64,000 bases of DNA from Dysidea avara (Eukaryota > Porifera > Demospongiae > Dictyoceratida > Dysideidae), in contig NC_089275.1 of assembly GCF_963678975.1 (NCBI RefSeq), positions 1,693,001 through 1,757,000 of the forward strand, in the 5' to 3' direction. Below the pieces are notes generated by a model, which saw only the letters and a program-made list of their open reading frames with translations, was not told where the DNA came from and ran no database searches. A program made the translations under genes and the position numbers. Below, in pieces: positions 9,632 to 60,159 of the stretch (the stretch's first letter is position 1; each line of letters starts with the position of its first letter).

Positions 9632-9982
9632 CAGGGCGGATCCAGAGTTTCGAAAGAGGGGGGGCACCTTTCTGAAAAACAGTTGAAGACCAAAAAAACT
9701 TGCTGAAAACCAGTTGAAGACCAAAAAAAAAAAAAAAAAAAAGGTCACAACAATAATAGCTAGTTATCCTTACCTACTATATCACGTCTGTTATGTAAAA
9801 TAAAATCCTATTTGTAGCTTCATAGGTAAGCTATACTGCCTCATGAACATTGTGACTGCTTTATTAGAGTAATTGACTGCTCTATTAGAGTATATCGATC
9901 TTGTATGCAATTTCTTGAAGGGGGGGGGGGGGGGGGGGGGGGGGGCATTTGCCCCAAATGCCCCATCCTGGATCCGCCACTG
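9632..9982. mobile_element. MITE with CAGTGGCGGATCC-type ends, 5-bp TSD, copy 1
   Basis: The left end is CAGGGCGGATCCAGAG and the right end CCTGGATCCGCCACTG, flanked by the direct repeat AGTAC (9627-9631, 9983-9987). The body carries a poly-A run (9723-9741), a poly-G run (9920-9945) and two copies of the ATTAGAG cassette (about 9858-9897). It matches 13828-14155 in the opposite orientation. A 5-bp TSD fits the hAT5 group; that assignment is inference. Confidence 0.9.
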
Positions 9983-10059
9983 AGTACTATGCCAACACAT
10001 AATGCTAGCATATTAGGTGGATATTTCAAACTATGGAGCTTAATTGCTTGCAAATAGAT

Positions 10060-10190
10060 TAATACTCCCTAATAGAGCAGTAATTGGAAAACAGGGCACT
10101 CAAATGTATTGTTCATGCTCCTTAGATTGATACTCTCTAATAAAACAGCCACTTTTGTAGTGAAATACTCTAATAGAGCAGACTTATAAT
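10060..10190. repeat. Three diverged copies of the TCTAATAGAGCAG cassette
   Basis: Copies occur at about 10065, 10127 and 10165 (CTCCCTAATAGAGCAG, ACTCTCTAATAAAACAG, ACTCTAATAGAGCAG). No element ends were found around them. Confidence 0.6.
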
Positions 10191-10200
10191 GTTTTTTGCA

Positions 10201-12480
10201 CTTTCTTTGTTGTTGTTGCTGTTGTTGTTTACTTTTTTATGTATGTAGTTAACATAGTTTTCCTTGTCATGTCCACAACAGATCTATCAGATATGTGGTA
10301 GCATGTTTGTCTGAGGATTCACATACTGTTTTTTTCTTCATACATTTCATCATTTTTTCTTCATACATTTAATCATTTCATTATTTTGTTCATCATTAAA
10401 GAACAATAACTGCCCACTCACACCAGTTTACTAATAGAAATGAGAATCAAGGAATATCCTTATAAGGACTTTAAGAGAATAATCTACATGTGGGTATTTA
10501 GAACCGTTTTAATATTCAAAATCTGTCAGTCGAATGGGCTGCACCCCAAAACCATTGCATCTCTAACTCAAGCATCTTCAAACTATGACATTGGAAACTA
10601 AAAAGTCACTGTTGGACATCTTAAGTAGCAGTTTATAAGAATGAAATAGTTAACCATGACCACTCTAAAGCTATTGATGTACTATGCATATACAAAATTA
10701 CCATTTCCCTGCCGTTTATAGGTTGAAAAGGTCACATTAATGATATAGTAGGGATTCCACAATAGTCATGACATATGACATATCATGACATGGTATGTCA
10801 TGACAGAGAAATAGCACACAAATTTGGCTACCTTATAATGTACAAATTTAAATATTGGGTCCAAAACTATACATGTGAATGCATCAAATAAAAATCAGGA
10901 ATTATTCACACCCAATAGTTTTTCTCTTTATTTAATAATATCACTAAACAAGGCATTAGCTACATAGTATTAAGTTTTGATGCAATTTTAATGTAATAAT
11001 TGATGGCATCATGTAAAATTTTGACTGCGTACATATTTTTATTGAAATTCTTTATCAAAATACAAATGGCAACAACTTTCATATGCCATAGTGCACAGAC
11101 TTGTAATAAAGTTCAACAGATTTGCTACATCATGTCATTTACAGCAAGATGCCATTTAGTTATTGCTGATAGGACCAACCATTCCAAAGGTATGAATATG
11201 TGAAAACAGTGTATGAAAGTCGATGTAATGAAGGACAAATTAACTTCAAGAACTTGTTCTCAGGATTTCTAAAACGTGTTTTATTCCTGAAATTTACTTG
11301 TCTGACTCCCTGTTCCACAGGCTAATTTGTTGCCTCCCTGTGGGTCCCTAGAGGGATAGTTGAACAACAATGATAAATTCCTGTGATAATGACATAAACA
11401 TTTCTTATGTTGTGGCATCCCTATGGTATAGGCTGTTAGCTGAGTTACCATTTGTATGATAGTCTATGAATGGCTCACTTTGAAATTTTACTTTCAAGAA
11501 TTTCTAAAAATTAAAATTATGTCCTCTAGTTACAATATGTTTAAACAGTGAATAAAATACTTTAATGCATCAACTGATGTGCAGTGTATGTACACACTAA
11601 TAGAGTAGTGACTTGGGCACAAATGTAATATTTAACTTGGTGAGTTAGTGCACTAATGTGCAATTTTACATGACACAAATGATCATCATAAATAGCTAAC
11701 ATGTAAAACATATCTGGTATGTAGTTTAGATAATAATATTATAGAAATTACGACCCACCAAATTAATTAATTATTCAAAGATTGCTACATGCTATACACA
11801 TATAGTAGGTTGCATTCTTGTATCAATTTGTGATATGTGTATACAGGAGGGCCGTAGGGCTGTAGTCAGGCTACTTTCATGGGTAGTTACTTAGATGAAA
11901 ATGTCGACCATTTGAAAACTTTTGAAAATAGATACTGTTTGGTGATATTTCAGTTATTAATGACATCTGTTACCACTAACAATTTTTACACTTTTGTACT
12001 GAAAATTTGGACTCTTATTGTTGAGCTGAAGTTACTAATTAGGGATGTGGTGATTGCGCTGACACAATTATAGTTATCTGTGGGAATTATATCTGGAATG
12101 TTAAAGAACAATTCCATTAAAAAGATCAAGATACTCTAATAGAACAGTCATAAATTCAAATGGAATGGTCACACAATATTTATAATGTATTATACTCTTC
12201 AGTCACACAGAATGAAATATTCCTTCTGCTATGCCACTCTTACTAGATGAATACGTGATACTCTTGTAATTGTCATCTTCTCCAAAAACCTTTTGTGTAC
12301 ACACTGACAAATAAAGATCTCTATAGCTAACTGTTCTAGTTATAGTAATGCTTGATAGCAGCATTCATTGTTTGTGTCATATTCTTCATAGTTTGTTAAT
12401 ATCATTACTATCATATATAGCCAAGTTTCTTAGCAACCTGTCTTCACCTGATGATCCTCTGAACTAGTACACCATTTGTG
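10201..12480. other. AT-rich intergenic stretch, no gene recognised
   Basis: Scattered short ORFs (up to ~67 codons at 11000-11203) show no family resemblance or splice context. 10750-10805 contains overlapping ATGACATATGACATATCATG palindromic words preceded by TAGGGATTCCAC; a similar arrangement occurs near 63770, so an old element end is possible. A cassette copy occurs at about 12128-12150. Confidence 0.4.
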
Positions 12481-13270
12481 ATCAATAAATTATGGTATGT
12501 CAAATGACATCATTGTAATACCTGTGATATTCCAAAGGGAACATGATGAGTTTGTAGCAGTTTTTTAGAGTATACATGCAGTACAGTAATTAGCATATTA
12601 ATACTTGAGATACTCTAACAGAACAGTCACTTAATCTAATAGAACAATCAGTGGTAGTTTCATCTCTCTGTTAAATTAGTCACTAACCATCTTGATAACA
12701 ATAACACTGCGTAATTGATACAACTAAATTCAGGAGGTTTTACTGTTTCAATGTCTTGCTGAATATCTTGCAATTGAATAGACATTAAAGGTTATACATC
12801 TAAAATTGGGAGCGAATACTTTTAGGAATAATGAGTCCATTTAAAGGATAATGTCAACAGTTTGAATAAATCCAAATTAGAATAATGATGAAAAGTTTTG
12901 AGCAAAATTCACAAGACTCAGGTGTGAGGTGAAGACACTTATATGACTACAGTACTTGCCAATGTTCTCATAATGGAAATCTGCATGATTATATAAAGAA
13001 GATAATTCAGTAATCAGCAAAATCTGTTAATCGAACAGTCCCAAAATTTCTCTTAGCAAGATAAACAGTAACTGACCTAGAAAATATGAACATTTTAATA
13101 ATCTGTACACTTTTAAATCCAGGCAAAAAGTGTACTATCCACTGTACACTTATACAAATTGGATAGTTAACAAGTGGCCCTATTATCCTTTTATGTATAG
13201 GAGCACTTACCTCCATATCAGTCATTACTAATCTAGATCTAATGACATGTTTGTTTTGAGTTCCATACAG
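12480..13270. repeat. Diverged duplicated segment, copy 3
   Basis: 12500-12545 matches 1140-1190, 12640-12720 matches 1280-1350 and 12725-13020 matches 1745-2045 and 7575-7885, all collinear but with many substitutions and indels. Cassette copies lie at 12605-12650. No ORF is supported. Confidence 0.65.
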
Positions 13271-13275
13271 GGTAT

Positions 13276-13788
13276 CTATAACAAATTCACTAATTTATTG
13301 AGGCTGCAATACTGAAAGCTAGTACAGTATATCTGGATTGTATATAGAAACCCCACTCTCAAATTTGAATTTATAGCCAACACAAAATTTTGGCAGCACA
13401 AAGGCGCAGAAATACAAACACAGTTAACAGTGCAATAGATATAAGTTCTCAGAAATGGGTAAAATATAAGAACGATAGTATACATGTAACCACAAGGAAA
13501 TGCAAAATTTTTATATTGATTCTTTAATAGAACTATTCTAATAGAACAGTCATTTGAAGGGCTCTGTTTCTTTATATACAGTCTTCTTCTTAACCATCCT
13601 ATCTTTTTATCATCAAACCTTCCGGCCACTGTTTTTGACTTCTTGTTGTGTAGTGAATAGTTAATTGTATTCTTATTTACATAATACAGTTGTTTCTGTA
13701 TAATGTCACCTTGTCTGCTTGTCATTGTACTGTTATGTGTAACCTTGTATGTGTGTAATGCTCCAGTAAGAAACACAGCAATACTCAT
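13276..13788 (-). other. 170-codon open frame of doubtful coding status
   Basis: This is the longest non-repetitive open frame in the first 20 kb. The C-terminal half is hydrophobic and matches the 8135-8404 minus-strand frame (NFAFPCGYMY, then GFLYTI versus GFLYSI). The N-terminal half has no counterpart there and includes the translated cassette repeat. There is no recognisable domain, and the match extends into untranslated flanks. I think this is a chance open frame in duplicated DNA. A lineage-specific membrane peptide is the alternative. Confidence 0.2.
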
Positions 13789-13827
13789 ATTCTGATACTG
13801 ACTAACCCCGTATTTTACTCCATATTA

Positions 13828-14155
13828 CAGTGGCGGATCCAGGGGGGCGCAGGGGGCACGTCCCCCCCCATCCCTTAAAAAAATGTATATAAGATCGAGA
13901 TACTCTAATAGAGCAGTCAATCACCAATCACTCTAATAAAGCAGTCACAGTGTTCATGGGGAAGTGTAGCTTACTTAGGAAGCTATAAATAGGATTTTAT
14001 TTTTTACATAACATACGTGATATAATATATTTGGTAAAGGATAACTAGCTATTATTGTTGTGACCTTTTTTTTTTTTTTTTTTTTTTTTTTGTTTTGCTC
14101 TTCAATTTTTTTCAGCAAGGTGCCCCCCTCTTTCCAGACTCTGGATCCGCCCCTG
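13828..14155. mobile_element. MITE with CAGTGGCGGATCC-type ends, 5-bp TSD, copy 2
   Basis: The left end is CAGTGGCGGATCCAGG and the right end CTCTGGATCCGCCCCTG, flanked by TATTA on both sides (13823-13827, 14156-14160). Internally it is the reverse complement of the 9632-9982 element, including the long poly-T (14067-14092) and two cassette copies at 13895-13945. Confidence 0.9.
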
Positions 14156-15640
14156 TATTACTCTGTCTTAACTCCATCTTGGGACCATTATTTAAAATTT
14201 ACACAGTAATAGTCTACTGTTCTGACTAGTAATCTAGTTTTGCTTCAGGCTAGGTTGTGTTGCACTTGGGAAAAAAATGTTCCAAGACTGAGTAATACTG
14301 AGTAAAATTCAGTAAATATGGAGTTAGTATATCAGTATTAGTTAGTATATCAGTATTAGTTAGTATCCATACATGAGTTTTAATATGCTGTGAAAGAACA
14401 GCTATATAATTATGCTGATTACCATGACATTAAATTAAAAGATCACTAAATAAATCTACATGTATAAGGTGTTCTGCTATGAATCTGTATGACTATTCTA
14501 TTCTATTAAAGTATCTTAATAAAAATTATGGTTTTTTTAATAAGGTGTTGATATTTGTTCATATCTATAGATGTCTGCATGTTGCCTACAGTATTAGCTA
14601 TAGTAAATTGACCTGGTCTGTGAAAACAGAGCATGTATGAGCGGCACATTAATTTTCCTTATAATTTTTTTAAACTTTTGTGCCTTAATGAAAAAACAAT
14701 GCACAGATTTCATTACTGATATTATGGTTATTTCCACCTCACTGAAAGTCTTGTACATGCAGTTGTGCTTTTGCCATAATTATTATAATTCAACACCCAG
14801 GATATTGTTATTATCCCAAGGATGAAGTCATGCAAGGCTGAGGTATGAAAAACAAAATACGTGAGTACAGTTTAACTAGCTTCAGTTCCACATACTTTGA
14901 AATACTTGACTTAACATGACAATTGCTGAAATCGAGGTGTTGATAGCAATGTAGTAATACCTTCTGTTTTATAACTTCATATAAAGACATGACATGAGGC
15001 TATAGATAAACATGTAAGCTAAGTTACATTTTTTTTCTGTGCTCATAGCGTTAGGAAGTAATATGGTTTTATCACTGCTTGAAGAAGGCTGCTTTGCCAC
15101 TATCAAAATCAAGCAGTGAACTAACAGATAAGAACGTTTTGTTTACTTTACTCATAATTTACCTAGACTGAACCAATCAACATTTTTGTAGTGTCAGTTT
15201 ACTAGTTGATTTACCTTGAGTAAATAATCAGTAAACAAACGTTTACTGATTATTTACCCTATATTATTATTAGCTTTCTGGTACTGAGATAGGTGATAAG
15301 GTACATGTAGTTAGTGATCATTTACCCTATATCACATGATCACCCTTATGCATGAGTCATGTAAAGTAGATTCTTTGATTCCTGTTTCAACCCACATGCT
15401 TTAATGGAAGTGTCATGGACAAGATTTCATTGCGTTATACATGTATTTACACCTCAAGCATTTGCAAAAAAATTTTTCATTATAGTCTCAAGGTTTTCTG
15501 CCATAGCTAATGAGTTATGAATAGTAACCATAAAATGATGTAAACTACTGTGTTATTCAGTAAACTACTGTGTTATTCAGTAAATTCTTTGCATGTTATA
15601 CCTTAAGGTGGATCTAGGTTTTGAGTCAAAGACATTACTC
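14156..15640. repeat. Non-coding stretch with further diverged segment copies
   Basis: 14690-14960 and 15350-15560 both resemble 8640-8950 (shared words TTGATTCCTGTTTCA, CACTTTGAAAT/CATACTTTGAAATA). The stretch also contains a short triplicated TATCAGTATTAGTTAG at 14330-14362. No gene is supported. Confidence 0.5.
15220..15257. repeat. 17-bp perfect hairpin
   Basis: GTAAATAATCAGTAAAC faces GTTTACTGATTATTTAC across a 4-nt loop. Related sequence (CAGTAAAC) recurs at 1570-1660. Confidence 0.75.
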
Positions 15641-16677
15641 AGTTTGTAGAAATTCCAATTGGAAGTCTTGGTACATCAATATCACACGTATGTATTGCAT
15701 ATTAAATGACATGTTCATTTGGTTGACATGCAAGCTGGTGGTTATATGATGTAGTGGAAATTCTTTAACAGTTGCATGACCATATTAAGCAAAATCTTGG
15801 ACGTTGCATGCGTGGGTATAAGCTTGGGAGGTGTGATAATGTGTTGCATTATATGCTACAGATTCTATCTGCAGTAAAAGAAAGACTAGGCAAGCTTATT
15901 CAAATGATATAGCTATTATTTCTTTGCAGGCAAGGGGAGGAGCACAAACAGGCTAAGTTTTAGGTGGTGGGGGAGAGCAGGATTCTCTTGTTATAGTTGC
16001 TGTATATTTGAAGCAGCAATTATTCACTTCTTAGTAGTGTCTCACAGCTCATTTTTGTCATTTTAGCCTTTGCAGATGGTTGTGAAGTCTTTAAAAGGCT
16101 ATACACCAGCAACACGACAAATATTTCAGAGGTGTTTAGTATGCACGAAGATGCTGGGTGACGGTTTGACAAATGTTTTGAGTTCGGTTTCAGGTGAGTT
16201 TGCAATAAATTATAGTAAAAAACACGCATATTGTTCATGAGCTATTGCTAACAAGATTTAGTATTTTAATCAAAAGAAGTAGCTATGCATGGTTCCTCCA
16301 CAAAGGGATGGAGGGGCATTTGCCCTAAATGGATCCGCCATTGCTTTTAGAGAGCGTCTAACTGCCAGTACAGCCTTTACAAAAGCACTGCTACAAGTTC
16401 ACTTTTGATTATATGAACATGTACACCTCTAGCCTGACCTACTGATGACAGAGAACTGTTGATAGGTGATATTATGAGTTCTTGGTTACATCAATGAGCT
16501 TTCCTAAGAACTTAGTACATATCACCTGACACTACTGGATATTAAAAATTCCCTCGTGGAATGATCTTTGAATCATCAAAAAGATATGAAATACATTTAA
16601 AGAAAAGGTCTAAATCAGCAGCTTTTGATCAATAGCTTACAACACTGAAGTGTGAACAATAATAATTATATGAAATT
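15641..16677. other. Intergenic stretch; a degraded MITE end only
   Basis: Near 16300-16345 a fragment reads GGGGCATTTGCCCTAAATGG then ATCCGCCATTG. It matches the right end of the 9632-9982 element without a partner end. Nothing else was recognised. Confidence 0.4.
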
Positions 16678-17050
16678 CATACGAGGCAGAAGGATGCTAA
16701 AGTTGGGGGTGCCCAAAGTTTATGTTGGTGGTAGTAATTTTAGGAGGGTCTGGGGGCATGCCCCCCCGGCCCCCTCCCCCAGGAAAAGTTTTGAAAATTA
16801 GGTATTAGCAGATTGGATTTGGGGGCATTTTTGGTGGATTTAGCTGTTAATGAAATGCTACCAATTTTAATACATGCTTGACTGTGGTATTATTAGGGTG
16901 ACTGCTTTATTAGAGTATCTTGATCGTGATTGACAAGTTTCTGGAAACCTTGCAGGAGCACACGTGATGACTATTGCACAATACAGCTTTGAGTTGGGAG
17001 TGCTCAGCACCCACAGTAAAATCCCAGCACCCCCTCTTCCGCCGCCTATG
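16678..17050. mobile_element. MITE with CATAGGCGGCGGAAG-type ends, copy 1
   Basis: The left end is CATACGAGGCAGAAGG and the right end CTTCCGCCGCCTATG, with TSD AAATT (16673-16677 and 17051-17055). The body matches 59779-60159 over its full length (shared GGTGCCCAAA, TTTAGCTGTTAAT, CATGCTTGACTG, CAATACAGCTTTGAGTTGGG). It includes one cassette copy at about 16900-16920. Confidence 0.9.
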
Positions 17051-17384
17051 AAATTAGAGTGACATCAACTACATATTCTTTCAATGAATTTCTGTGAAAT
17101 TTGCAAAGTGAAGGGATCATTTTCAGTTATCCTTGCTTACAGCTGGGTAGTCATGGAGGGCACAGACTTCCTCTCGGACTTCCTTTACCTCTTAGACATT
17201 CAACCTTCCTGAAATCAACTATCTCATATACCACATCTTCATCTTTGTCTAATTACTGATCTCTTTTCCTCACAAAGATTACACAGGTGTCTTCATTTTC
17301 AAGGGTCCTGTGTCATATCCCACAAGTAATTATTTCTTTACTAACGACAATTAAACCCACAATCGGTGTGTGTTGTTTTGTATG

Positions 17385-17475
17385 TGCTTTTTGTGAAGGG
17401 GAGCACGTTTACAGGCTTAGCCTTTTGTGTACCCTTGTCTTTTGACAAAAATGGATAATCTAATCTAATCGTTCC
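17385..17475 (+). mobile_element. LINE-like 3' end, copy 1
   Basis: The block GGGGAGCACGTTTACAGGCT ... TGTCTTTTGACAAAAATGG ends in a short repeat tail ATAATCTAATCTAATC. A copy with the same tail lies at 57803-57888. A conserved block ending in a simple repeat is how 3' ends of CR1/L2-like LINEs look. No ORF remains upstream that I can recognise. Confidence 0.55.
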
Positions 17476-17923
17476 TTTTTAATGCTTCGCTCTCACCTGG
17501 CTGTTGTGATTACTAGTGCCGCTAAGGACAGTTCAGTAATAGTATGCTGTAAGATTTTGTTAAAGTGTTCAGTTCGTCATTTCGGCGGTTTAGTGCTTTC
17601 CGTTCCGCGTTCCGTTGCTTTAATATGTTCGCGCGTGGATCCTCTACCCAACTTTGAATATTGTGTCCGACTACCGACTCTTCGCTTTACTCTCACTTCA
17701 ATAAGTGAGTTATTATGTGTACATAATAATATAGTTGAATATCGTGTGTATGTGTAGTCTCACCCCAGTCTGTGTCACTATCACTAACTAAATTTTCTTA
17801 GAGAACACAAACTACACAACAACTCATACAGACCTACAACAACAACTGCTAAGGATTCATCACACACATATACAGGGATTGTGGTAAGAATTTTCAGTGT
17901 CAAGACAAATTTCCTTGCATTTA
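17476..17923. other. Unresolved stretch between elements
   Basis: A 91-codon open frame (17482-17757, +) has a slightly higher GC content than its flanks but no recognisable domain. Confidence 0.3.
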
Positions 17924-18234: not shown

Positions 18235-18237
18235 TTA

Positions 18238-18625
18238 GGCAAACTTGATTAATTGTTTCATCCCCGCCCACCGGCATCCCCCTTTACCCCACCATAGATA
18301 TATAAGCCCCCTGGTTCCTGGGGTTTATATATCTATGACCCCACTGCCTCTAATTTCAGTATTGCTGTTATCAATCATGTGCACATGTATTTTGATGTTA
18401 AGAAGGCTGGCTATCATTTTACAGCACAGCAAATATCACTTGCACCTCAGAAAGCTTTGTAAAACGTAAGTACTAGTTCTTAAAAGACTTTGGCTAACCT
18501 TTTAATAACAGACAGCTTGATTAGAGTATTTTCTTTAATAGTGAATAATGAAAAAAATGACCTCCCGCCCGCATGGAAATCTGAGTTTTTGTGGATGAGA
18601 AACAATTAATCAAGTTTGCTTGGCC
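18238..18625. mobile_element. Harbinger-like MITE with GGC..AAACTTGATTAATTG ends
   Basis: The left end GGCAAACTTGATTAATTG and the right end CAATTAATCAAGTTTGC then TTGGCC are inverted repeats with TTA on both sides (18235-18237, 18626-18628). Inside, 18287-18337 is a second hairpin (CATAGATATATAAGCCCCC / GGGTTTATATATCTATG). A degraded cassette copy lies near 18515-18530. Confidence 0.85.
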
Positions 18626-20861: not shown

Positions 20862-20937
20862 TATTTCTCTTGTAACAGCAGTTTACACATCAACTATGAG
20901 TGAATGTTTGTCAACACCTACGTACATTGTATGGCAT

Positions 20938-21003
20938 CACACACACACACAAGTACGCACGCACACACACACACACACACACAGAGGTACGCACGCATGC
21001 ACG

Positions 21004-21052: not shown

Positions 21053-21053
<1 letters not shown>

Positions 21054-24403: not shown

Positions 24404-43612
<19,209 letters not shown>

Positions 43613-46491: not shown

Positions 46492-46596
46492 TTATTTTTA
46501 AAAGTTATAACTTTTAGGAACACGTTTTTATGAAGGCCTTGACTGCTCTATTAGGGAAAGATAATTTTGGCGGGATATCATTCTGAGCGGGCTAAC

Positions 46597-46624: not shown

Positions 46625-46859
46625 TTTCTGCTACTTATGCTAAAAGCAGGATTTGGGGGCACAACAGATTGTGTAAAATTTTACTATAGTAATTATAGCA
46701 AACTGTGAGTACTTTTGGGGATAAAAAACTACATAATTTCCTCCCCTATATCTTTCTTCATGTTCATGCATATTGCAATGAGTACATCCAAAGGTGTCAT
46801 GACCAGTGAGGCCAAAGCCTCACCACTTTTTGGGTGAAAATTCAGTTTTGAAAAAATTA

Positions 46860-47255
46860 GTGATTGTTGTGAATACAGTGATTGTACTACAATCACTGCA
46901 ATCACTACAATCACTGCAATCACTACAATCATTGCAATCATTGTATTCACTACAATCACTATAATCACCGTATTCACTATAATCACTGTATTCACTACAT
47001 TCACCGCAATCATCGCAATCACTAAAATCACTGTATTCACCACAATCACTGCATTCACCACAATAACTGCATTCACTACAATCACCACAATCACTACAGT
47101 AGTGATTGTGGTGATTGTAATAATTGTGATGAATGCAGTGTTTGTAGTGATTATAGTGATTGCAATCACTATAATCACCAGAATCACTGCATTCTCTGCA
47201 ATCATTGTATTCACTGCAATCACTACAACTACTGCATTCACTGCATGAAAAGTAA
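46860..47255. repeat. AATCACTNC minisatellite
   Basis: The unit CAATCACTA/G (9-10 bp, with CATTCAC variants) is repeated about 40 times, with an internal inversion around 47095-47160 where the motif changes to GTGATTGTG. The 182-codon minus-strand frame (VIVV-type repeats) is an artefact. The same unit occurs at 59637-59778 and 60160-60450. Confidence 0.9.
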
Positions 47256-48071: not shown

Positions 48072-48519
48072 TAGGGACCCGCCGATTATGCTCATAATTT
48101 TACCTATTATGCTATGCTGCACTGCTCAAATATTCACCTATTATGCTTAAATTAATGCTCAATACTTACCTATTATGCTCGATTATGCTCAATGTTCATG
48201 CCTTAGTTCATATGCTTTGCTACTAGTTTAACACTATATAGAAAGAAAAAAATGAGTGGCTGGAACACAAATAATAAATTCTTGCTGCATGCCTGCATGT
48301 AAGAGGAAAGATCGATATACTCTAATAGAACAGTCAGTTTGATGATTGTTCTATTAGAGTTACTGACTGCTCTATTAGAGTATATCGATCTTATTTTGCA
48401 ATTGTCATTTTTCCAGCAAGAATTGTACAAATATTTAACCTATTATGCTGGCATTATGCTCAATGCTTTTAGGTACCTATTATGCTCAAAATTATGCCAG
48501 CATAATCGGCGGGTCCCTA
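48072..48519. mobile_element. hAT-like MITE with TAGGGACCCGCCGATTATG ends
   Basis: The left end TAGGGACCCGCCGATTATG and the right end CATAATCGGCGGGTCCCTA are perfect inverted repeats. The TSD is a perfect 8-bp CTTTAATG (48064-48071, 48520-48527). The body has many CCTATTATGCT words. 48309-48391 is a palindromic trio of cassettes starting AAGATCGATATACTCTAATA and ending with its complement. Confidence 0.95.
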
Positions 48520-48527
48520 CTTTAATG

Positions 48528-49268: not shown

Positions 49269-50010
49269 TTAAAGTGTCCAGGTTGGATTACTACGTGCAT
49301 AAAAGATTCTCTGAGAGGAAGTTATAGCCACAGCAGCTGCTCTATCAAGCAATGCTTTCGTCTTGGAAAAACTCAGATTTGAAACTCTTTTCATAGATGT
49401 TACTGTCTCTGTAAGGTAATGGCCAAGGCAACCAATTTCAACTGTGTGGTAATGACTAACAAAACCCAAGCGGTCAAGCTCAGCAATAATTTGCAGATAT
49501 TCTGGCTTCTCCTGCTTACGTTCTCGTGCAGCAGAAAGGTCAGCACGAGAATTAAATGGGCAGGTAAGTTCCAGAAGTACAACAGATTTCATTTCTGCAT
49601 TATATATAACAATGTCAGGTCGGTGAGAACACACTAGTACAGCAGGGGGAATGGTGGCAGGAGGAGAGTCAGACGCACGTTTGCCATCCAAATCAGCAAA
49701 TATTTCTACATTATCCAAACAAGCTTGCAACCCAGACATCAAACATAATAAAACAGCATCATGACGAAAAGTAAATCTGCCTTGCTGCAAAGCCACAGGA
49801 CACCCATTTAGCACATGGTGACAAGTTGGACGAGGTGACAAACAAAGTGAACAAGTTGCACCAGTTTGTATATGCCAGCGACGTAAATTTAACGGAGTTG
49901 GTAATGTATCTGATGAAGCTCGCAGCACAAACGAAAGCTGGCCTGGATGAAAACCCAACAGGAGTCGATTCCACAGCTTAGAGTCAGCTTCCAGAACAGC
50001 ACTTGATTCA
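49269..50010 (-). pseudogene. Retrotransposon C-terminal part with restriction-like endonuclease
   Basis: The open frame (229 codons downstream of a TTG, open further upstream to about 50010) has a CCHC-type knuckle, CSLCLSPRPTCHHVLNGC (C-x2-C...H-x4-C), followed by RPDIVIYN and VVLLELTCPFN and then Lys-rich AARERKQEK. RPD plus E-L-T resembles the PD-(D/E)xK restriction-like endonuclease at the C terminus of R2-type non-LTR retrotransposons. It is the 3' half of the element whose upstream part lies at 50834-51530; the two were separated by the insertion between them. Confidence 0.75.
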
Positions 50011-50016
50011 AATTTA

Positions 50017-50017
<1 letters not shown>

Positions 50018-50065
<48 letters not shown>
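50018..50065. repeat. (TTA)n run, 3' tail of the inserted LINE
   Basis: About 16 ATT units. On the minus strand it reads (AAT)n and follows the end of the LINE frame at 50154, so it is best read as that LINE's 3' tail. Confidence 0.8.
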
Positions 50066-50700
50066 GTTACTGAGCAGACAGCGCAGCTGATATGCTCAGG
50101 AAAAGAAAAGCAATCATAAAATGAATTTAGCTACGTAGTTACAAAGATTACAGTTATTGAGTTCTATACAATGTTTGCAGTTCCGCTGAAAAAGAGTCAA
50201 TATTGTTGCTCTCAATGATGGAAGATGGTAAGTTGTTCCAATCCTTAATTGATCTGGAGAAAAAGCTCTGTTGGTATGAATAGGTGGATGAGTTTGGTAG
50301 AATAAAACGATGTGGGTGATATAGTCTGGTGGATCTTGTCATTGAAATAAAATGAGGAGGAATTGACAGTAAATAATCTTGATGTATAATTTTAAAAAGT
50401 GCTTGTAATCTGGATATTTTACGTCTCAGCTGAAGGCTTGGCCAAGAAAGATGCTGTAACATAGCTGTGACTGAGCTGATTCGATTGAAATCATTTAGGA
50501 CCCATCTAGCTGCCCTACGCTGTACTTTCTCTAGCTGTTGAATATTGTTATGGTGGTATGGGTCCCAGATGACTGCAGCGTATTCCATTGACGGTCGTAC
50601 TATCGTAAGGTAGGCTGTTGCTTTGATGTTAGACGAGCAGCAACTCAGATTGCGTTTCAAAAAGTTTAATGTTCTATTGGCCTTAGCAGCGAGAGTGTCC
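50066..50700 (-). pseudogene. 5'-truncated LINE ORF2 C terminus, inserted in the retrotransposon
   Basis: The frame 50154-50700 encodes KANRTLNFLKRNL, YLTIVRPSMEYAAVIWDPY, LEKVQRRAARWVLNDF and ends SAELQTLYRTQ. This series is the well-known region after the reverse transcriptase in CR1/Jockey/RTE-type LINEs. Only the last ~180 codons remain, typical of 5' truncation. It ends in (AAT)n at 50065-50018. It interrupts the endonuclease-type element in the same orientation. Confidence 0.8.
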
Positions 50701-50885
50701 AGAGCGACATTGAACAGAGAGAGTGTCCAGCTTCTCTTTGCATAGTGACATTGAACAGAGAGAGTGACATTGTCCAGCTTCTCTGCAGCGACATTGTCCA
50801 GCTTCTTTGCATAGTGACATTGTCCAGCTTCTCTTAGCAGCGACATTGAACAGAGAGAGTGTCCAGCTTCTCTTTGCATAGTGTC
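50696..50885. repeat. Short tandem repeat at the insertion junction
   Basis: GTCCAGCTTCTCTTTGCATA and GACATTGAACAGAGAGAGTG words alternate five to six times with length variants. The unit is part of the retrotransposon frame (minus strand LCKEKLDTLSVQC), repeated next to the LINE 5' junction. The repeat lets the minus-strand frame stay open through the junction. Confidence 0.8.
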
Positions 50886-51530
50886 AATTCTCTAGAAATG
50901 GCAAGGTGTTTGCTAGCTGTGTAGAGCTTGCGAGCCGTAGGAATAGAGTCCAGTTGAGCTCTGGCTTCATTGAGTAACTCCTGATGAGAACTGTTAATCT
51001 GGAGGAAATTGGAGGAAAGATCCACTTGTAAGGCCAACTCCTTAATCATCGGATCTGATGAGGAGGAGATGTTGGCAAGTAAACTAAGTTTACACTGCTT
51101 TGAAATTGAACGCACACTAGGACAGCAAACACCTGGATAGTTCAAGATCACACGAGTGGCACTGCGAGGTAAACAGAGCCAACGTTTCAGGTATTTAGTA
51201 GCTAGATTTTCCATTTTATTGATAGTGGATGGTCCAACACTATCAACAGTGAGATGGAATCTGATGATTGAGAGAACATAATTCCTATAAATCCATACTT
51301 GGTACTCAGGTCTTAATGGCAAACTATCAACTTTCTGTATAAGGTCAGAGAACCTAGCAAACATAGCTTTGCCAGAAGCACTTTTGGTAGCATGAGCAGA
51401 AACTCCAATCAACTTCCCCAAAAATTTGGTCGGGCCATCTAAGATAGTTTTGGTAGTACCACCAGATAGAGTTATTCCACAAGAACAAAATTTTGTGCCA
51501 TCAAACAATAAGGAAACACATTTAGATGGT
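50834..51530 (-). pseudogene. Retrotransposon fragment upstream of the endonuclease part
   Basis: The open frame encodes FLGKLIGVSAHATKSASGKA, LRPEYQVWIYRNYVLSIIRF and a long helical region ending LCKEKLDTLSVQC. It resembles the thumb/connection region after the reverse transcriptase in non-LTR elements. The catalytic reverse transcriptase part is absent; the copy starts at about 51530, so it is 5'-truncated. It continues functionally into 50010-49269. Confidence 0.65.
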
Positions 51531-51941
51531 CCTATAGTGGATGGTTGTCAAACCAACAGGTGTTAGTCTTTGTGTCACTGCCACTGGGCACTTTCTGACA
51601 AGTGTATGTTATGTATAACAATAAATTACTGATTTTTGATTGTATATGTGTACTATCAATAGTTCATAATAAAGAGGTCTTATAGTATGGACTCTTGGTA
51701 CAAGAGGTTGTTGGTAGAACTTTATTGCAGGAAAAAAACACTAATGACACTTAGATGGTTTATTAATTGCAATGTTGGTTTACGGTTAAATGGCTTCTAT
51801 CCATGGAAGAATTATGATGTTGTAAGAAAACAAAATGTTTGGATTACAGCACTCTCGTATGGTGGTCTATAGCTAGTATCACATTAAATTTTTTTTAGTT
51901 CACAGATTTACTATACAGATTTGGAGACCTGTATGCCTTAA

Positions 51942-52322
51942 GGCCACTCCAATTGGTAATTATGTTTCTGGTCCTTTGAAAATCAGTTTTAGGTGCGGGC
52001 GGGCGGAATTCGGCAACAGAGCAACAATGAAGTGACTGATTAATTAGAGTATTTTTGTGATTTACTGACTGTTCTATTAGAGTATATCGATCCATACTAT
52101 GCACTGTGCCCATTTCTTGTAGGTATTCACTGATAAAATACAAACTATGACACTTAGATAGTTAGATTTAGCATACTTGTTGCAGCCCAACAATCGTTTC
52201 TGGAATCCAGGTTTTCCAAAAGGCTGATGCGGGCATTTTACCTATGTATTTCTGAAATTTCACACTCTCCAATATAGGATGCGGGCGGAGGGCCAGAAAC
52301 ATAATTACCAATTGGAGTGGCC
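51942..52322. mobile_element. Harbinger-like MITE with GGCCACTCCAATTGG ends
   Basis: The left end GGCCACTCCAATTGGTAAT and the right end ATTACCAATTGGAGTGGCC are perfect inverted repeats for about 30 bp. The target site is TAA (51939-51941, 52323-52325). Two cassette copies lie at 52030-52092. GCGGGCG motifs near both ends parallel the elements at 18238 and 57948. Confidence 0.92.
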
Positions 52323-52354
52323 TAATAACATTATGAGACCAACTAGATGTGATC

Positions 52355-52815
52355 CAGCGTTGAAACCGGGTCGGGTCATCCGGGTCATCCGGGTCACATT
52401 TTCTCCGGGTCATCCGGGTCTGACCCGGATTGGATCACGTGAGAAACGAAATTGTTCATTTGACGACGTGGAACTTATAAACGCTATCGCGTAGCTCTTT
52501 CGTGAGCCACGCCCACTTATCGCATTACCAACATATGCTCAGCCACGCCTATTTGTTAGTAAGTGCAGTATGTAGCACGAAACTGAGGGTATCTATGGTG
52601 AAGGGTAGCTATTGTCAGTAGGTGAAGACCTTTTTTTTTTTTTTTTTGGTCTTCAACCTACAGCTAGGCTGAAGTTGCAATATTTACTCAACACGAATCA
52701 AACGCTCAAAATGTAGACTCGTTCGCTCGCCCCACGTCTCGGCTTTAATTAATCCGGGTCACATCCGGGTCAGTGGGTCATCCGGGTCAGCAGTAGTGAC
52801 CCGGTTTCAACGTTG
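52355..52815. mobile_element. hAT-like MITE with CAGCGTTGAAACCGGGTC ends
   Basis: The left end CAGCGTTGAAACCGGGTC and the right end GACCCGGTTTCAACGTTG are inverted repeats. The TSD is a perfect 8-bp ATGTGATC (52347-52354, 52816-52823). GGGTCATCCGGGTCA units are repeated near both ends. A poly-T tract lies at 52630-52647. Confidence 0.93.
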
Positions 52816-53051
52816 ATGTGATCATCATTCACATGTAACTAGTAGCTAGTAATGTGCAAGGACTTGCATGAGGAATAAAGTTCTCCTAAAATTAACTATT
52901 TGCTAAGAAACTGCATGTCTTGATTGAGTGAGAAGGGTGGTGGCAGCTAATTGGTCATATTCATAGAGTTGAAGAATTACACATAACTATATTCAAATGT
53001 TTTGGTAGACCTTTTGGTTAAATACATAAACTATAGCTACCTGCCCATTTC

Positions 53052-54350
53052 TTTGTTCTGTTGTAAATGAGTTTCTGGTCACCTCTTAGCAGCAATGTGT
53101 AAACAAAATTCTATCATGTCAGCAAGGTAAGAGTTTAATCTCAGAGGCTCGTAAGATGGAATGCAATCCATCTATGTACATGTGTCCTGCTTAACTATGT
53201 TACCTGATCCTGCATGGTGGTAGCTGCAACTTTATGTGTTTAAAGTGTCAAGTGTTCACATTTTTTTCACAGCAATATGTGAAACACATTGCTCTTCAAA
53301 GCAGGCAGTGAAGTGTAGCTTAGTAATCTACTCTATGAATTTCCATACTGCATGGGCATCCACCACAGCGTGTTAACGTTAGTTCATTAGTGGTTATATC
53401 CATTTAGTGGCTTGAAGTAACAGCTGTTAGTGTGTTTGTGTCGCCAATGCTTGGAAGGGACTTATATACTTTGCTATTCATTCATGTAAACATGGTCTAT
53501 AGACATTTTGAATCGCAAAAAACCTTCTATAGCTGCTAACGGTCTGTCAGACTGTCACTATCAAATGCATGAATTTTAGTAGGCACAATCAAAGTTTGGT
53601 AATTGTAAGGTTTCAGCCAGGGTTGATGCTAAGTTGTTGTTGCTGCTTCCTTGAGCAAGAAAGGTTACTCACATTGCTCCGGTTTACCCAGTTGTTAAAT
53701 AGGGACCTTTCTTAAATGGTGACTTTTTTGGTAGCCCTATAGTTTTAAATGCTTTTGGTTGAATACTATAACATTACTTTGTTCTGTTGTAAATGAATTT
53801 TTAGTCACCTGTTAGCAACTATTGTGTGCACTATAATACATATCTACATGTCAGGAACATGCATTAAGCATGTAGCAAAGTAAGTTTCAATCACAGAGGC
53901 TCTTAAGATGGAATGCAATTCATCTATGCACATGTGTCCTGCTAATGGTGGTAGCTAGCTTTTTCTATATTAAAACTAACTTAAAAGTGCCAAGTGTTCA
54001 CAATAATCTCCACAGTGATGTGTGAAGCATATTGAGTAAAAGCTCTTCGAAGCAGGCAGTAATGTGTAGTGCAAAAAATTCTATGAATTTGCATACTGGG
54101 AATCCACCACAGCACATTATTTCATTAGTGTTAATGGTTATATTCATTTTAATGGTTTGAAAGAACAGCTGTTAGTCTGTGTGCCAATAGTTTGAAAGGA
54201 CTTATACTTTGCTATTGCTTTTGACTCATGCATGCATGCAAGCACGGACATTATAAATCACAAAAAAATTCTGTAGCTGCTAACAGTCTGTCACTATCAA
54301 ATCCATTACCTTTGGTAGGCACAATCGGTGCTTTGATACATGGAAAAATT
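53052..54350. repeat. Tandem duplication of ~727 bp
   Basis: TTTGTTCTGTTGTAAATGA begins both copies (53052 and about 53778). Collinear matches run through CAGAGGCTC.TAAGATGGAAT, ATGTGTCCTGCT, AGCAGGCAGT and CTGCTAAC.GTCTGTCA. The first copy ends GGTTTCAGCCAGGGTTGATG (about 53620); the matching end of the second copy is at about 57140-57172, because a microsatellite and the foldback element interrupt it. Neither copy has a coding frame. Confidence 0.85.
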
Positions 54351-54369
54351 TAATGTTGTGTAGTAGCTA

Positions 54370-54535
54370 GTGTGTGTGTATGAGTGTGTGTGTGTGTATG
54401 AGTGTGTGTGTGTATGAGTGTGTGTGTGTATGAGTGTGTGTGTGTATGAGTGAGTGAGTGAGTGAGTGAGTGAGTGAGTGAGTGAGTGAGTGAGTGAGTG
54501 AGTGAGTGAGTGAGTGAGTGAGTGAGTGAGTGAGT

Positions 54536-54593
<58 letters not shown>
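54370..54593. repeat. Compound (TG)n / (GAGT)n / (GA)n microsatellite
   Basis: TGTGTATGAG units are followed by about 25 GAGT units and about 27 GA units, directly upstream of the foldback element. Minus-strand frames with Ser-Leu and Thr-His runs are artefacts. Confidence 0.97.
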
Positions 54594-54598
<5 letters not shown>

Positions 54599-54610
54599 GC
54601 AGTTAAGATA

Positions 54611-57123
54611 GGTGGGGACTATTCTACGGAACGAAACGGAACGGAATGATGGACTAAACCACGGAACGGAACGCTTTCTCAAATTGAAGCTTGCAACTTA
54701 CCATTGCTGAAACTTCTCTTATAAGTTAGCAGTGGCATCTCCAGTGGGTGATTAAACATAAGATAAAAAGAATTAACGGATCGATTGTGGGTTTTTGTTG
54801 GTTGTCATTAGTAACAAAGTATTATTGTGGGATGAGCTGTATCAGTGATGTTCATCCGTACGGAAGGGAACTTTATGTGAGCTGTGTTTCTTTAGAAAAC
54901 AGTCTGGGCCGGTCTTTCAAGTCATAAGTCAGTGTATAAATAAAGCAAGCAGGAAGATACTGGTAACAGGAAAGAGCCAGCTGAATTAAAACTTGAAGAA
55001 TTTTGTGCAGTGTGTGAGGAGCAAATATTTTGGCAGACCGCAAGGAGGGTATATTCTGCAAACATCACTGAAGTGTATGCATGGAGTTATTTATATATTA
55101 ACAGCTGGTGCAGTGGACTAATGCCGTATTCAATAGTGAGCTGATTTTATCTGTTGCACAATTCAAGGATGTGTCTGACTGCTAGCCTTGAATCAGGCTA
55201 AATGCCAAAACTCCAAGATCAGCCAAATCTCTATTATAAGCCGCATGTGAAACCATGCCCATAGCCACCAGGCAAACGTGATTTGGACCAGGATGTGTGT
55301 GTAATTTCAATGTATCTAGTCAGACCTGAAATGGAACACTCACATTAATTACATACCACCTAAGAATCCTAGGATTTCTTAAGTGTAACATTTCACATGC
55401 TTCACTTCAAACAAAACAGGTTAAATTTGTTCGTCTATTTTCAATTCCCAGTCCAGCTGGTCCATGAAATTACAATGGGATCACATGTATTTGTTACAGT
55501 GCGGGCTGTCCTGTGTTGGATCTACTCTAGAGTTGAGATTTCAAGGTAGACTCACTGCCAATGTACTGACACTAATACTGTTGTAGCATGTTTAAGTGGA
55601 GGACAAATGAAATAGTAATGCTAGATTATTTATGTATACAAATTTTTCATAATGAAATTGATATCCCATTTTGATTTGTACTTCCACTTTGCAACATATT
55701 CAAGAGCAAGAAGCTACCACACTTAATCTCCAACCACTGTCATTAATTAACCAAGATCTCACTAGTCTGTAATTCACCTTACTGTAGTGATTTTATTGAT
55801 TCATCTGTATGTTTTCTTCATTTCCTTCGAAGTTGTACCAAGAGTTCATAATAAGGTGGAGAGTGTCTAACTTGAATGCATTCACCAAACACCCTGCTTA
55901 AAGTAACACCTCGGCCTTATTTCAGAACAAAGGCTTTACCTTCTTCAGCAACACTAATCAACAGTTTTCTATCCCCCAGTAAAGGTGTTGATTTGATGAA
56001 AGGTGAACTTTACGCAGGGTGTTTGTACAGGCCATACTGAGAGTTAGACTCTCTCCCCCATACAAATCAGTATTATGAACTCTTGGTTGTACAGTATCGG
56101 TAAACAAAGATAAGTTTCTCTCCCATCTTATTCTAGGATTTCTATTGACAAGGAAAATTCAATTATTTGTGTACAGGCTCAAAATTGAGAAAATATAAAG
56201 AAAGTGAATTAATATTATACAATCAGTTTACTTTTGGATATTTAATGTCTCCAACCACAACAAAAATTCGATGAATCCATGCATCTCATCACTGGTCGTC
56301 TGAACATTCTGAAAGTGATACCTCACTCAATCAACCATATATTCTGTTTATTAGACTGAATAAAGTCATGATTACCTAAACAATCACTTAATTAATGTTT
56401 TATAATTATCCTATTCCATTTTCCTGGAGGTTCCACTGATAAAATGCAATTTCAGCAATGATAGCAGCTAGCCAAGCTGCAAGTTGATTCAGAAAGCATT
56501 CCATTCTGTAAAATAGACCCCATCCAGAATTCAACTCAGTACTCAGGCTGAGATATCTGACAATAGTCCACTACTCTGTTAATGAATCATTGATGTTCAC
56601 ACAATATAGCCTCCTTGAGGTATCTGAATGTTTGCTCCTCACACACTGCACAAAATTCCTTTAGATTCTACTTAGACTGAGTTGATTCAGCTTGTCACCA
56701 TACTTGTTTCCTTTGTAGTGTAGCTATACACATACTGATTTATGCCGATTAGAAAGGCTGGGCCTCAGACTGTACATTCTAAAGTCAAGTAAATAAAAAT
56801 AACTCACATACTAGTAAAAACAAGTCATGCATTAAGTTCCCTACTTGATATATCCGAAGATGAACACACTGAGTCAGCTATTCCCACAATTAGTACTTCG
56901 TTACTAATGACAACCAACAAGAACCCACAATCGATCCTTAAATTCGTTTTATCTTTCTTGGGGTACGTTTGATTACCTGCTGGAAGTGCCACTGATAATT
57001 TGTACAGCAATGGTAAGCTGCAAGCTTCAATCTGAGAAAGCATTCCGTTCCGCAGTTTAGTCCATCATTCCGTTCCGTTCCGTTCCGTTCCGTTCCGTTC
57101 CGTTCCGTAGAATAGACCCCACC
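54611..57123. mobile_element. 2.5-kb long-TIR foldback element, 9-bp TSD
   Basis: The left end GGTGGGGACTATTCTACGG and the right end CCGTAGAATAGACCCCACC are inverted. The TSD is a perfect 9-bp GTTAAGATA (54602-54610, 57124-57132). The inverted similarity extends inwards for several hundred bp (CGATTGTGGGTT near 54783 against AACCCACAATCGAT near 56925), and matching inverted words occur close to the centre (CCAAGAGTTCATAATA near 55838 against TATTATGAACTCTTGG near 56073). GGAACG arrays expand near the ends, more on the right. There is no transposase. A 9-bp TSD with long TIRs suits Mutator-like elements. Confidence 0.85.
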
Positions 57124-57802
57124 GTTAAGATAAGTGGTCTGAGTTTGGTAATTGAAAGGTTTCAGCCAGGTTTGATGCCCAGTACAGTTACCCAGGTGTT
57201 AAGTGGCAACCTAGTGACAACTGGGGAGGCAGACCATCCATAGCTCTGATATAACATATGTAGTGGGTGAAGGTACAGGTGATATTTAATTGGGCTGCCA
57301 TTCCCATACATTCACATGAGATACTGTATGGTACAACTTTCTGTGAGTTACGTATAATACAAGTCCTGCCCTCGAAGGATTATGCTTACGATGACTCTTA
57401 GCACCAGCCTACATGAGTAGCTAGCACACAGATGCAGTCAGGTAAGCAAGTGGTAGCTGAAGGTATTGTCTTTTGTGTGTATGTGTGTGTGTTGGGCTTT
57501 GCTCTGTTAGTGTAGGCTAAGGCTGACTAAGAAGTTGACAGGAATGCATTCAAGTACATGAATATTTTTACTAATCAGTGTGGACAATCTAATTAGCCAC
57601 AGTGCATCCACCGCACTAGCTATATGGCTGCGCATGGATGAGGTCTATGCTCTATCATGCTCGTATATATATATACCAACAGCATGCATGCATGCACAGA
57701 TGCACACAATCACCTTCGCTGCATGTTTCTTCCGATTATTCTAGTCGCAGTTAATAACGAGGCTCTAGCAATGATGCAGCTTGTTAACTGTATGTATGTA
57801 TG

Positions 57803-57890
57803 TATGTCTTTGTAAGGGGAGCACGTTTGCAGGCTTTGCCTTTTGTGTGACCCTTGTCTTTTGACAAAAATCGATAATCTAATCTAACTA
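57803..57890 (+). mobile_element. LINE-like 3' end, copy 2
   Basis: GGGGAGCACGTTTGCAGGCT ... TGTCTTTTGACAAAAATCG, ending GATAATCTAATCTAAC, matches 17385-17475 closely. It follows a short (GTAT)n run at 57790. Confidence 0.55.
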
Positions 57891-57947
57891 GAACAGTGCT
57901 TGTGGCCTTGTGCTCCATGGCAGACTTACCTGCAGGTATAGCTATAA

Positions 57948-58327
57948 GGCCAATGAAACTTGATTAGCAGTTTCACGTCATTGCCCGCTTGCTTTTGATA
58001 CACCCGCATGGAATTTCATTATTGATATTTCAGATCGAAATACTCTAATAGAGCAGTCACTTTTATTCTAATAGAGCAATCAGCTATACTCTAATGGAAA
58101 AATCACTGTTTAGGAGCTACAGAAATAACTGAATATTCTTATATGGATTAGTAACATACTTTAATGCAAGAGTAATCAATGTAGATCTCACTGTTTTTGG
58201 TAGAAATCTTTATGTTTGGGATGTGTGTTGTACTTTTGGAAAATTATGAATAATGAATAATAACCGCCCTCCCGCATCAAATTTTCAAAAATCTGAGCGA
58301 GAAACTGGTAATCAAGTTTCATTGGCC
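57948..58327. mobile_element. Harbinger-like MITE with GGCCAATGAAACTTGATTA ends
   Basis: The left end GGCCAATGAAACTTGATTA and the right end TAATCAAGTTTCATTGGCC are inverted repeats with TAA on both sides (57945-57947, 58328-58330). It carries three cassette copies at 58024-58105 and CCCGC motifs near both ends. It is the same family type as 18238-18625. Confidence 0.92.
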
Positions 58328-59636
58328 TAAAGACTGTCACAGCATTTATGATCGTTCATAGATATCGCCTCTTCCATCCTTTTCCGCCAGTTTCTAGCGA
58401 CGCCACAATTGTATACCTTTGCTACAGTAGCTAGCTACAGTGCTACACGCATTTGGCGGCTACATAATCACATGTTGCTTGCTGGCAAAAGGAGTAGAGG
58501 ATAACACCCCCTGGGTCGAGAGACAACTGGGTGCATTCCACAAGCACTCATCATCTCTATAGTACGACTACCTCACAGTAAATTGGTTAAGTCTACTTTA
58601 TAGATGACTGCAAGTGCAAGCTACCCTGACATAGGGAACTTTGCAGAAAGACATATAGGAAGAGCTGCATTTGTAGCAATTGTGAGGTAACAAGATGTGG
58701 CTAATTCATGATTCATTATTAATTTGTTATCTATCATTGCATGGCAGTGGGATCTGCCATCAACATCACCTAGCTACGTAAAGTTGTCAAAGGAAGTTAC
58801 AAAGTAGTTACTGATGCTTTCAAAACTTGGACTGCTGATGAAGATGTCTTGTGGTAGTACTGTAGATGAAATCACATAGTAAGTTCTGCTCGGTAAGTTC
58901 TGCTATAGTTCTTGGAAATGAGTATTTTGTGGTCTATTGAAGTTAGGCAGTGGAGAAACCTGTGGTCATGGCTGGATCTTGTGAAAGCTATGAATGACAC
59001 TGTACAAGGAATAGTATACATTAATTCAAGGTTTGTCACAGAAAAAAATTGCCATAGCAATATTTTTAATGTAACAACATTTTTACAGATGCTACCTATA
59101 AGAAATATATATAACTAGTGATGAAACAGATTAGGAGAAGAAAGCTGCACTCAACGGACAGAAGTAAAAGAGCAAATCTACATTAATTTTAGTGATCTAA
59201 CATCCCTCAGAAAAAAAAGAATCCTGAAGGTGTCAAGAACTTCAATTTGTGAACTGAAAATTTTAGTTGCTGTACAAATGATGTGCTTTTTTACTTATTA
59301 ATGAAATACGTATTGTGGGTAGTAAATACAACACAGGAGCGAGACATTGCTAGCTATATTACTAGTGCAGTATAAAGCAGATGCACATTATAGAAAATGT
59401 TGATTTCAGCTACAGGATTTCTTACATCCTGTATGCATTTCACAGTGTTAAAATGTACATTTCTTCACTGCCTCATTTCCAGCACCATTCTAGATGCAGT
59501 GAATCTTTCTTTATCCTCTGTATGAAACTTTACTGAAATCTACTAATGTTCTAAGTATGAAATGTGGCTGAAATGACAAATTTCATGGCCATTTTATATG
59601 CATTACATACAAGCGGACATGGAACTTTTCGCCCAG
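58328..59636. other. Intergenic stretch, nothing recognised
   Basis: Short open frames only (62-68 codons at 58872-59118). No TIR pair was seen. Confidence 0.35.
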
Positions 59637-59778
59637 TGATTCACCACAATCACTACAAACACCGCAATCACTGTATTCACTACAATCACTGTAATCACTA
59701 CAATCACTACAATCACCACAATCACTGCAATCACTGTAATCACCACAATCACTGTAATCACTACAATCACTGCATTCA
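59637..59778. repeat. AATCACTNC minisatellite, left half
   Basis: The same 9-10-bp unit as 46860-47255. The array is interrupted by the MITE at 59779-60159 and resumes at 60160. Confidence 0.9.
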
Positions 59779-60159
59779 CATAGGAAGCGGAAGGATGCTA
59801 CAGTTGGGGGTGCCCAAAATTTATGGTGGTAGTAGTAGGTGTGCGAAGCACACCAAGGATGCTAATTCTAGGGGGGTCTGGGAGCATGCCCTCCCAGGAA
59901 AAAATTTGAAAATTAGGTGTCAGGAGATTGAATTTGGAGGCATTTTCGGTGGTTTTAGCTGTTAATCAAATACTAGTACTATTACTTTTATTTTAATACA
60001 TGCTTGACTGTTGTATTAGGGTGACTGCTCTATTGGGGTGACTGTTCTATTAGAGTATTTCGATCGTGATTGACAAGTTTCTGGAGGTTCGTGTGACGAC
60101 TATTGCGCAATACAGCTTTGAGTTGGGGGTGCTGGAGCACCCCTCTTCCGCCGCCTATG
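59779..60159. mobile_element. MITE with CATAGGCGGCGGAAG-type ends, copy 2
   Basis: The left end is CATAGGAAGCGGAAGG and the right end CTTCCGCCGCCTATG. The TSD is ATTCA (59774-59778, 60160-60164), a word of the minisatellite it landed in. It is a full-length match to 16678-17050. Two to three cassette copies lie at 60018-60063. Confidence 0.92.

Follow-up and report, generated by a model that had tools for sequence, protein, structure and literature searches.

A short cassette shared by unrelated DNA transposons of the sponge Dysidea avara as a possible binding-site module

Introduction

Sites for host zinc-finger proteins are carried by mobile elements, as in the Su(Hw) site array of gypsy and the CTCF sites of the rodent B2 short interspersed elements, and minisatellites, i.e. 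tandem units in non-autonomous elements, occur inside miniature inverted-repeat transposable elements (MITEs) and Helitron-related elements. Here we describe a short cassette found in a 64,000-nucleotide stretch of the Dysidea avara genome (RefSeq assembly GCF_963678975.1, contig NC_089275.1, positions 1,693,001 to 1,757,000 of the forward strand), referred to as the window. The cassette is like the Su(Hw)/gypsy case, a tandem array, and like the CTCF/B2 case; however, each of those belongs to one element family, whereas the cassette is found in unrelated transposons and its binding protein is only putative. The minisatellites mentioned above have a counterpart in one carrier, a multi-kb repeat (family J) whose long minisatellite begins at the cassette, but in the cassette the cores are kept while the linkers change and the same unit occurs across groups. 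In our judgement there is an even chance that the cassette is a compact cis-acting, putative binding-site module kept by transposons, most simply via a host protein.

In placozoans a chromatin-loop motif is located in Mutator terminal repeats, and the transposable element-associated loop anchors of ctenophores are bound by CTEP1/CTEP2 (PMC12221973). Like the placozoan motif, the cassette is short and has been spread by DNA transposons in an animal of an early-branching lineage, and its setting is like that of the ctenophore anchors, for which a sequence-specific DNA-binding protein is named. In contrast to the placozoan motif, which lies in the Mutator terminal inverted repeat (TIR) and for which looping was measured, the cassette is internal, occurs in several transposon groups and is known from sequence alone. 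In Arabidopsis, short interrupted repeat cassettes (SIRC) consist of short direct repeats between which the spacers are unrelated; they are tied to MITEs and also occur in other mobile elements (PMC10342631). Multi-core cassettes with linkers show repeats and spacers of this kind, and those with a single core or 0-nt linkers do not. SIRC is, however, a structural class with repeats of 10-29 bp at about 3,000 places, while the cassette is a single motif at about 130,000 places, with a first-unit prefix and mostly short linkers. In the available sections of both reports neither the placozoan and ctenophore motifs nor SIRC appear as a single motif that several groups of transposons have in common, as they do here. 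Searches of open-licence papers by sequence strings and by topic gave no account of this motif.

Results

The initial annotation described a recurring core, often with a prefix, and this was confirmed: the core CTCTAATAGAGCAGTCA has 35 window matches at no more than 3 mismatches, against 0.24 expected and a largest shuffle value of 2. The sites listed there were real, but those at 46540 (1 mismatch) and 11595 (3 mismatches) had been missed. In the whole genome (550,814,596 bases, 108 contigs) about 130,000 cores were counted at no more than 2 mismatches (64,722 forward and 65,253 reverse), approximately one per 4 kb, while the reversed-pattern control gave 19 and 18 matches, 37 in total. Near-consensus core pairs not more than 30 bases apart numbered 6,786 and 6,855 genome-wide and 0 and 0 in the control.

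The full unit is polar and about 29 bp long, with the prefix WAGATYRAKATA followed by the 17-bp core CTCTAATAGARCAGTCA, and extra 17-bp cores often lie downstream. A matrix of 23 aligned window copies displays the prefix and a sharp 29-bp edge, with little information beyond it and unrelated flanks. The genome sample consisted of 250 kb, taken as 25 stretches at round coordinates, plus 28 loci picked for an exact core; the 25 stretches together with the window make up a 314-kb sample, whose element list was made by hand. In a 264-kb sample the prefix was present at up to 3 mismatches out of 12 in 31 of the 55 first units and poor in later ones (5 or more mismatches in 33/35). Its variants TCGA, TCAA and TTGA would correspond to the pattern expected from CpG decay. 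With 4 mismatches chance matches start to appear: the 264-kb set had 33 sites with exactly this number, against 13 for the reversed control and 17 for shuffled motifs. Among units with up to 4 mismatches, those inside elements were less decayed: 37/44 embedded units had no more than 2 mismatches, versus 61/114 free ones.

No RNA family (at the gathering threshold) and no tRNA was detected in the window. The 27-bp form had 0 exact matches in the prokaryote and viral contig collections, where records near this genome may be absent; the 17-bp form occurred in 6 viral stretches, always without prefix, and these were taken as chance. The cassette could also be a small-RNA target or decoy, given a length in the piRNA range, and the 29-bp unit, the many copies and the nearly equal strands would suit such a role. 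Transposons should, however, lose and not keep silencing targets, and we regard this as very improbable.

The conservation of the core was compared with that of linkers and flanks in 35 tandem-core groups that differ in their flanks, where both cores were required within 3 mismatches. In the twelve groups with a 4-nt linker the differences per site were 0.64 for the first three linker bases, 0.07 for core one, 0.19 for core two and 0.26 for the prefix; the flank values (0.69 and 0.73) are high by construction, since the groups were split by flank dissimilarity, while the linker was not used for grouping.

Within element families the mean core divergence was below that of the median 17-column window in 9/12 families, equal to it in B and above it in C and K (Wilcoxon P = 0.006), eight of the twelve (C, M, K, H, B, bC, D, L) being pairs only. 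The core belonged to the best-conserved 0-0.7% of the 17-column windows in families A, G, H and D, and ranked at 1.2-4.9% in J and at 3.9-9.1% in I. In family A (7 copies, L046 and L049 near-identical) the core divergence was 0.000 against a window median of 0.196, and the second core, not selected by the fetch, had 0/357 pairwise differences compared with 981/5280 elsewhere, the pairs not being independent. An earlier pairwise run, to which we give little weight since its pairs overlap and were core-chosen, found 458/491 core sites identical versus 6566/7690 flank sites. The pair 42254/L013 had a lower core value, and one core is deleted in L013, by reading. The core was conserved in most of the diverged families, and the young families C, K and M gave no clear excess. 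Such a contrast is expected if selection acts on the active lineages and the copies decay neutrally once inserted; family B is a case against it. Small samples and some selection bias considered, these values indicate that the sequence constraint is probably confined to the site, with the exceptions of B, C, K, M and, weakly, bC.

The carriers of the cassette span four duplication classes (5-bp, TAA/TTA, 8-bp and TA) and, in addition, one minisatellite repeat without TIR. Their ends are unrelated among the groups, i.e. CA..GGCGG, TAGGG with an 8-bp target-site duplication (TSD), GGCC with TAA, and CAGTGGAACC..GGTTCCACTG with TA. The TA class is represented by one element, at the sample locus L050, which ends with TA plus CAGTGGAACC..GGTTCCACTG (TIR phase by reading) and which we presume to be pogo-like. 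The superfamily names hAT, PIF/Harbinger, pogo and Helitron-like are likewise our assumption from duplication length and ends. Across the groups the flanks are unrelated, the position of the cassette differs and its direction is reversed once (51942). When the window was compared with itself (rows of 50 columns or more), the similarity between different families was mostly 50-69 columns around the cassette; the longest, 97 columns, was between the palindromic cassettes 42438-42534 and 48307-48395 of the elements at 42254 and 48072.

Within the groups the situation is different. The elements at 9632 and 13828 form one family and those at 16678 and 59779 another, and both families were placed in one CA..GGCGG group by their ends. 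The cassette has the same direction near one end in 9/9 listed elements of this group, in which it is inherited. The related elements at 18238 and 57948 have the cassette at corresponding positions, and here too it is simply inherited. The sharing is therefore part descent, and part needs another cause, because four duplication classes and a non-TIR repeat with unrelated flanks are involved. The initial claim that common descent of the elements does not explain the sharing holds across the groups, but not within the CA..GGCGG group or for the pair 57948/18238; a single family with a homologous interior, named there as the contrary case, was found within groups only.

One explanation of the sharing is passive hitch-hiking: nested insertion, template switching or gap repair would have carried one abundant micro-repeat from family to family, and it would have spread with them without benefit. 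The repeat is so common that its capture is plausible, some sharing is plain descent, some sequence downstream of the cassette is also common in families A, G and I, and the young families and family B are without excess conservation. Copied blocks should, however, share linkers and some flank, whereas the linkers vary nearly like unrelated flanks, and in most diverged families the cores are much better conserved than the remaining sequence. We hold this explanation to be possible but somewhat doubtful.

Around the cassette itself no consistent TSD was found at any offset among 94 loci, relatives included; the strongest signal, 6 observed versus 1.3 expected, came from about 2,000 offset combinations that gave only scattered weak excesses. 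The 5' edge is fairly constant, while the 3' side is variable, with 1 to 5 cores separated by linkers of 0 to 38 nt (a 40-nt limit was used). As the duplication is not consistent, the 3' end not fixed and the unit number variable, a self-mobile cassette is not supported at present. The suggestion that it is a very small independent mobile element could appeal to the very high copy number and the many loci without recognised host, but in view of the above we consider it highly unlikely. As to whether the copies are always embedded, 40/59 cassette loci of the 314-kb sample were without recognised element, one of which (L025:7162) was later placed in a GGCC/TAA element; so many are probably decayed or of other origin. 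A sequence favoured by transposition had also been suggested; the cassette is inside recognised elements and not at junctions (by reading, no separate target-preference test being made), which gives this suggestion no support. A hAT-like element at L033, the duplication of which resembled part of the core, was dropped, as the joined flank contained no convincing cassette.

The prefix points towards the nearer element end in 14 of the 15 listed elements. In the 35 groups the linker was most often 4 nt long, as in 12 of them, or 0 nt, as in 8, and among 100 listed genome places the 4-nt linker was found in 29 and the 0-nt linker in 26. When similar linkers at the listed places were merged, only 5 families of 4-nt linkers remained, compared with 4 of 10 nt and 4 of 15 nt; fixed spacing as a strong rule was then dropped and only a preference is claimed. 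Local tandem duplication as the source of the extra cores was rejected: the linkers resembled their own upstream bases (0.475) no more than those of other loci (0.472; n=33).

In the window the elements at 13828, 48072, 51942, 57948 and 59779 were delimited by script, and those at 9632, 16678, 18238 and 42254 by sequence reading. The MITE 9632-9982 (minus strand) has CA..GGCGGATCC ends, TSD AGTAC and the cassette at 9853-9902, and the MITE 13828-14155 (plus) has CAGTGGCGGATCC ends, TSD TATTA and the cassette at 13891-13947. The MITE 16678-17050 (minus; TSD AAATT, cassette 16899-16927) is related to the MITE 59779-60159 (minus; CATAGG..GCGG ends, TSD ATTCA), whose cassette at 60005-60067 consists of three cores with 0-nt linkers. 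The latter MITE is inserted in a minisatellite at 59639-60452, related to another CACTACAATCACTGCAAT-type one at 46858-47246. A remnant at 26930-27574 (minus; TAGGGCTGCACCGAT-type end, by reading) contains a cassette at 27264-27313. Further CA..GGCGG-type elements of the sample include L017:846-1771, L019:8565-8884, L022:7222-7583 and L026:46-879, among others.

The GGCC MITE 51942-52322 (minus, TSD TAA) has its cassette (52033-52094) pointing outward. In 57948-58327 (plus, GGCC MITE, TSD TAA) the cassette at 58031-58105 has three cores, the third with 4 mismatches, and 6-nt linkers; its homologue 18238-18625 (minus, GGC..GGCC, TSD TTA) has a degraded cassette at 18510-18538 with 4 core mismatches. 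The TAGGG MITE 48072-48519 (TSD CTTTAATG) has a palindromic cassette at 48308-48392 with one plus and two minus cores, and the nested TAGGC element 42254-42719 (plus, 8-bp TSD matching 6/8) one with two direct and one inverted core at 42441-42533. TAGGG elements were also found in the sample at L056, with clear duplication, and at L011, without it.

The multi-kb repeat of family J covers 2249-6820 in the window, from the left end at 2249 through a minisatellite of about 30-bp units from about 3122 to a palindrome at 6493-6820, the right boundary being inferred; it is also found at L012, L018 (twice), L027, L048, L052, L055 and L057, and the cassette lies where its minisatellite begins. The cassette at 3041-3086 (plus; prefix and two cores, 0-nt linker) lies at the 5' edge of this minisatellite, hence the copy at 3052, formerly regarded as free, is actually inside the repeat. 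In the window and at L018, L027 and L012 the repeat has a constant left end with a short hairpin-forming start and, on the opposite side, a 330-bp palindrome; the minisatellite units resemble the cassette core. We take the repeat to be Helitron-related.

Without recognised element are the cassettes at 12122-12150 (plus), 12601-12650 (plus) and 35619-35668 (minus), the last two having two cores and a 4-nt linker, and the cores at 30316-30332 and 46540-46556 (both minus), the latter absent from the initial list; three degenerate units lie at 10055-10184 (plus). The cassettes at 8342-8370 and 13524-13552 (both plus) had been listed as free copies. No element is recognised at the former, but both lie in an old local duplication (7580-8363 and 12743-13531, about 65-68% identical), the latter in the paralogue of the 8194-8363 stretch. 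The two paralogues each lost a different cassette unit (alignment, by reading), and the idea that free copies are host-conserved sites was dropped.

Two further features were seen in the window. A near-perfect inverted repeat at 33816-34384 has 235-nt arms, 99% complementary, with 99 nt between them. The minus strand of 49272-51547 contains broken, non-LTR (long terminal repeat) retrotransposon-like open frames with a Pfam zf-RVT match at 49275-50018.

Family tests on DNA transposons consisted of Pfam matches at two loci, L025 and L030, both to the hAT dimerisation domain. At L025 a hAT transposase gene is interrupted by a cassette-bearing GGCC/TAA element about 1.1 kb long (7012-8146, TSD TAA, boundaries by reading), with the dimerisation match downstream, and the cassette nearest to this hAT region belongs to the inserted element. 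Matches to hAT transposase are numerous in the genome (150 scored out of 1,875 candidates).

Discussion

In the binding-site reading, the module would consist of the prefix and the 17-bp core, together a single bipartite site of 29 bp, to which further cores may be added. Several unrelated groups of DNA transposons would hold it in their interior and it would travel with its hosts. A sequence-specific host DNA-binding protein, e.g. a long zinc-finger protein, would bind the core and keep the element accessible, insulated or expressed in germ cells; element lineages keeping the core would multiply better, and the inserted copies would drift neutrally, giving the free and decayed copies genome-wide. 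The binding protein, the benefit to the elements and the route by which each group acquired the cassette are what we infer. The bipartite site, the short spacing, the direct and sometimes inverted order and the drifting linkers resemble a protein-binding array. Of the three readings first offered (a regulatory module, a mobile unit, a sequence favoured by transposition) the regulatory module fits best, with the core constraint in most diverged families in its favour and family B against it.

Several results weigh against this reading. Demanding near-intact cores lowers the core divergence through data selection, and for the non-first cores alone (9 families) the Wilcoxon P was only 0.043. Some of the twelve 4-nt-linker groups may be distant relatives, and in the diverged families B, bC and L 65%, 12-23% and 8.4% of the windows, respectively, were as good as the core. 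The loci without recognised element are numerous, and the elements L019:2099-2465 (GGCC/TAA) and L035:1274-1986 (TAGGG) hold no core within 3 mismatches. The nearer-end rule leans on one group (9/15), breaks at 51942 and means little if the cassette is palindromic or central; the inward direction, with two of the cassettes palindromic, is suggestive only. At 72 loci TATA-like sites downstream of the cassette were not enriched (TATAWAWR, forward, at 8 loci versus 6, 6 and 4 in three control placements), and initiator-like signals were in no clear excess (TCAKTY at 19 loci versus 14, 8 and 15). Since there is no TATA excess and no cassette could be assigned to the hAT transposase regions at L025 and L030, the element ends of which are unmapped, a plain transposase promoter is not supported.

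The core could instead be the site of a transposon-encoded factor used across several groups, like the subterminal repeats of some DNA transposons. Short sites repeated in direct and inverted order inside the elements, and the usually off-centre position towards one end, would agree with this. The groups differ, however, in ends and duplications and should use different transposases, the cassette is one-sided in most listed elements, and in two elements of the same types no core within 3 mismatches was found; we consider such a factor unlikely.

If the core is a binding site that the elements retain, unrelated transposons would have made convergent use of one regulatory signal, and mobile DNA would have had a direct route to spread one site genome-wide. 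We tentatively suggest, from the sequence comparisons, that the putative 29-bp site of one host protein, taken up and held by at least four unrelated transposon groups and a minisatellite repeat, could through their spread have become a transposon-built, genome-wide binding network of about 130,000 sites. If true, this would bear on how animals without CTCF could gain regulatory or architectural motifs.

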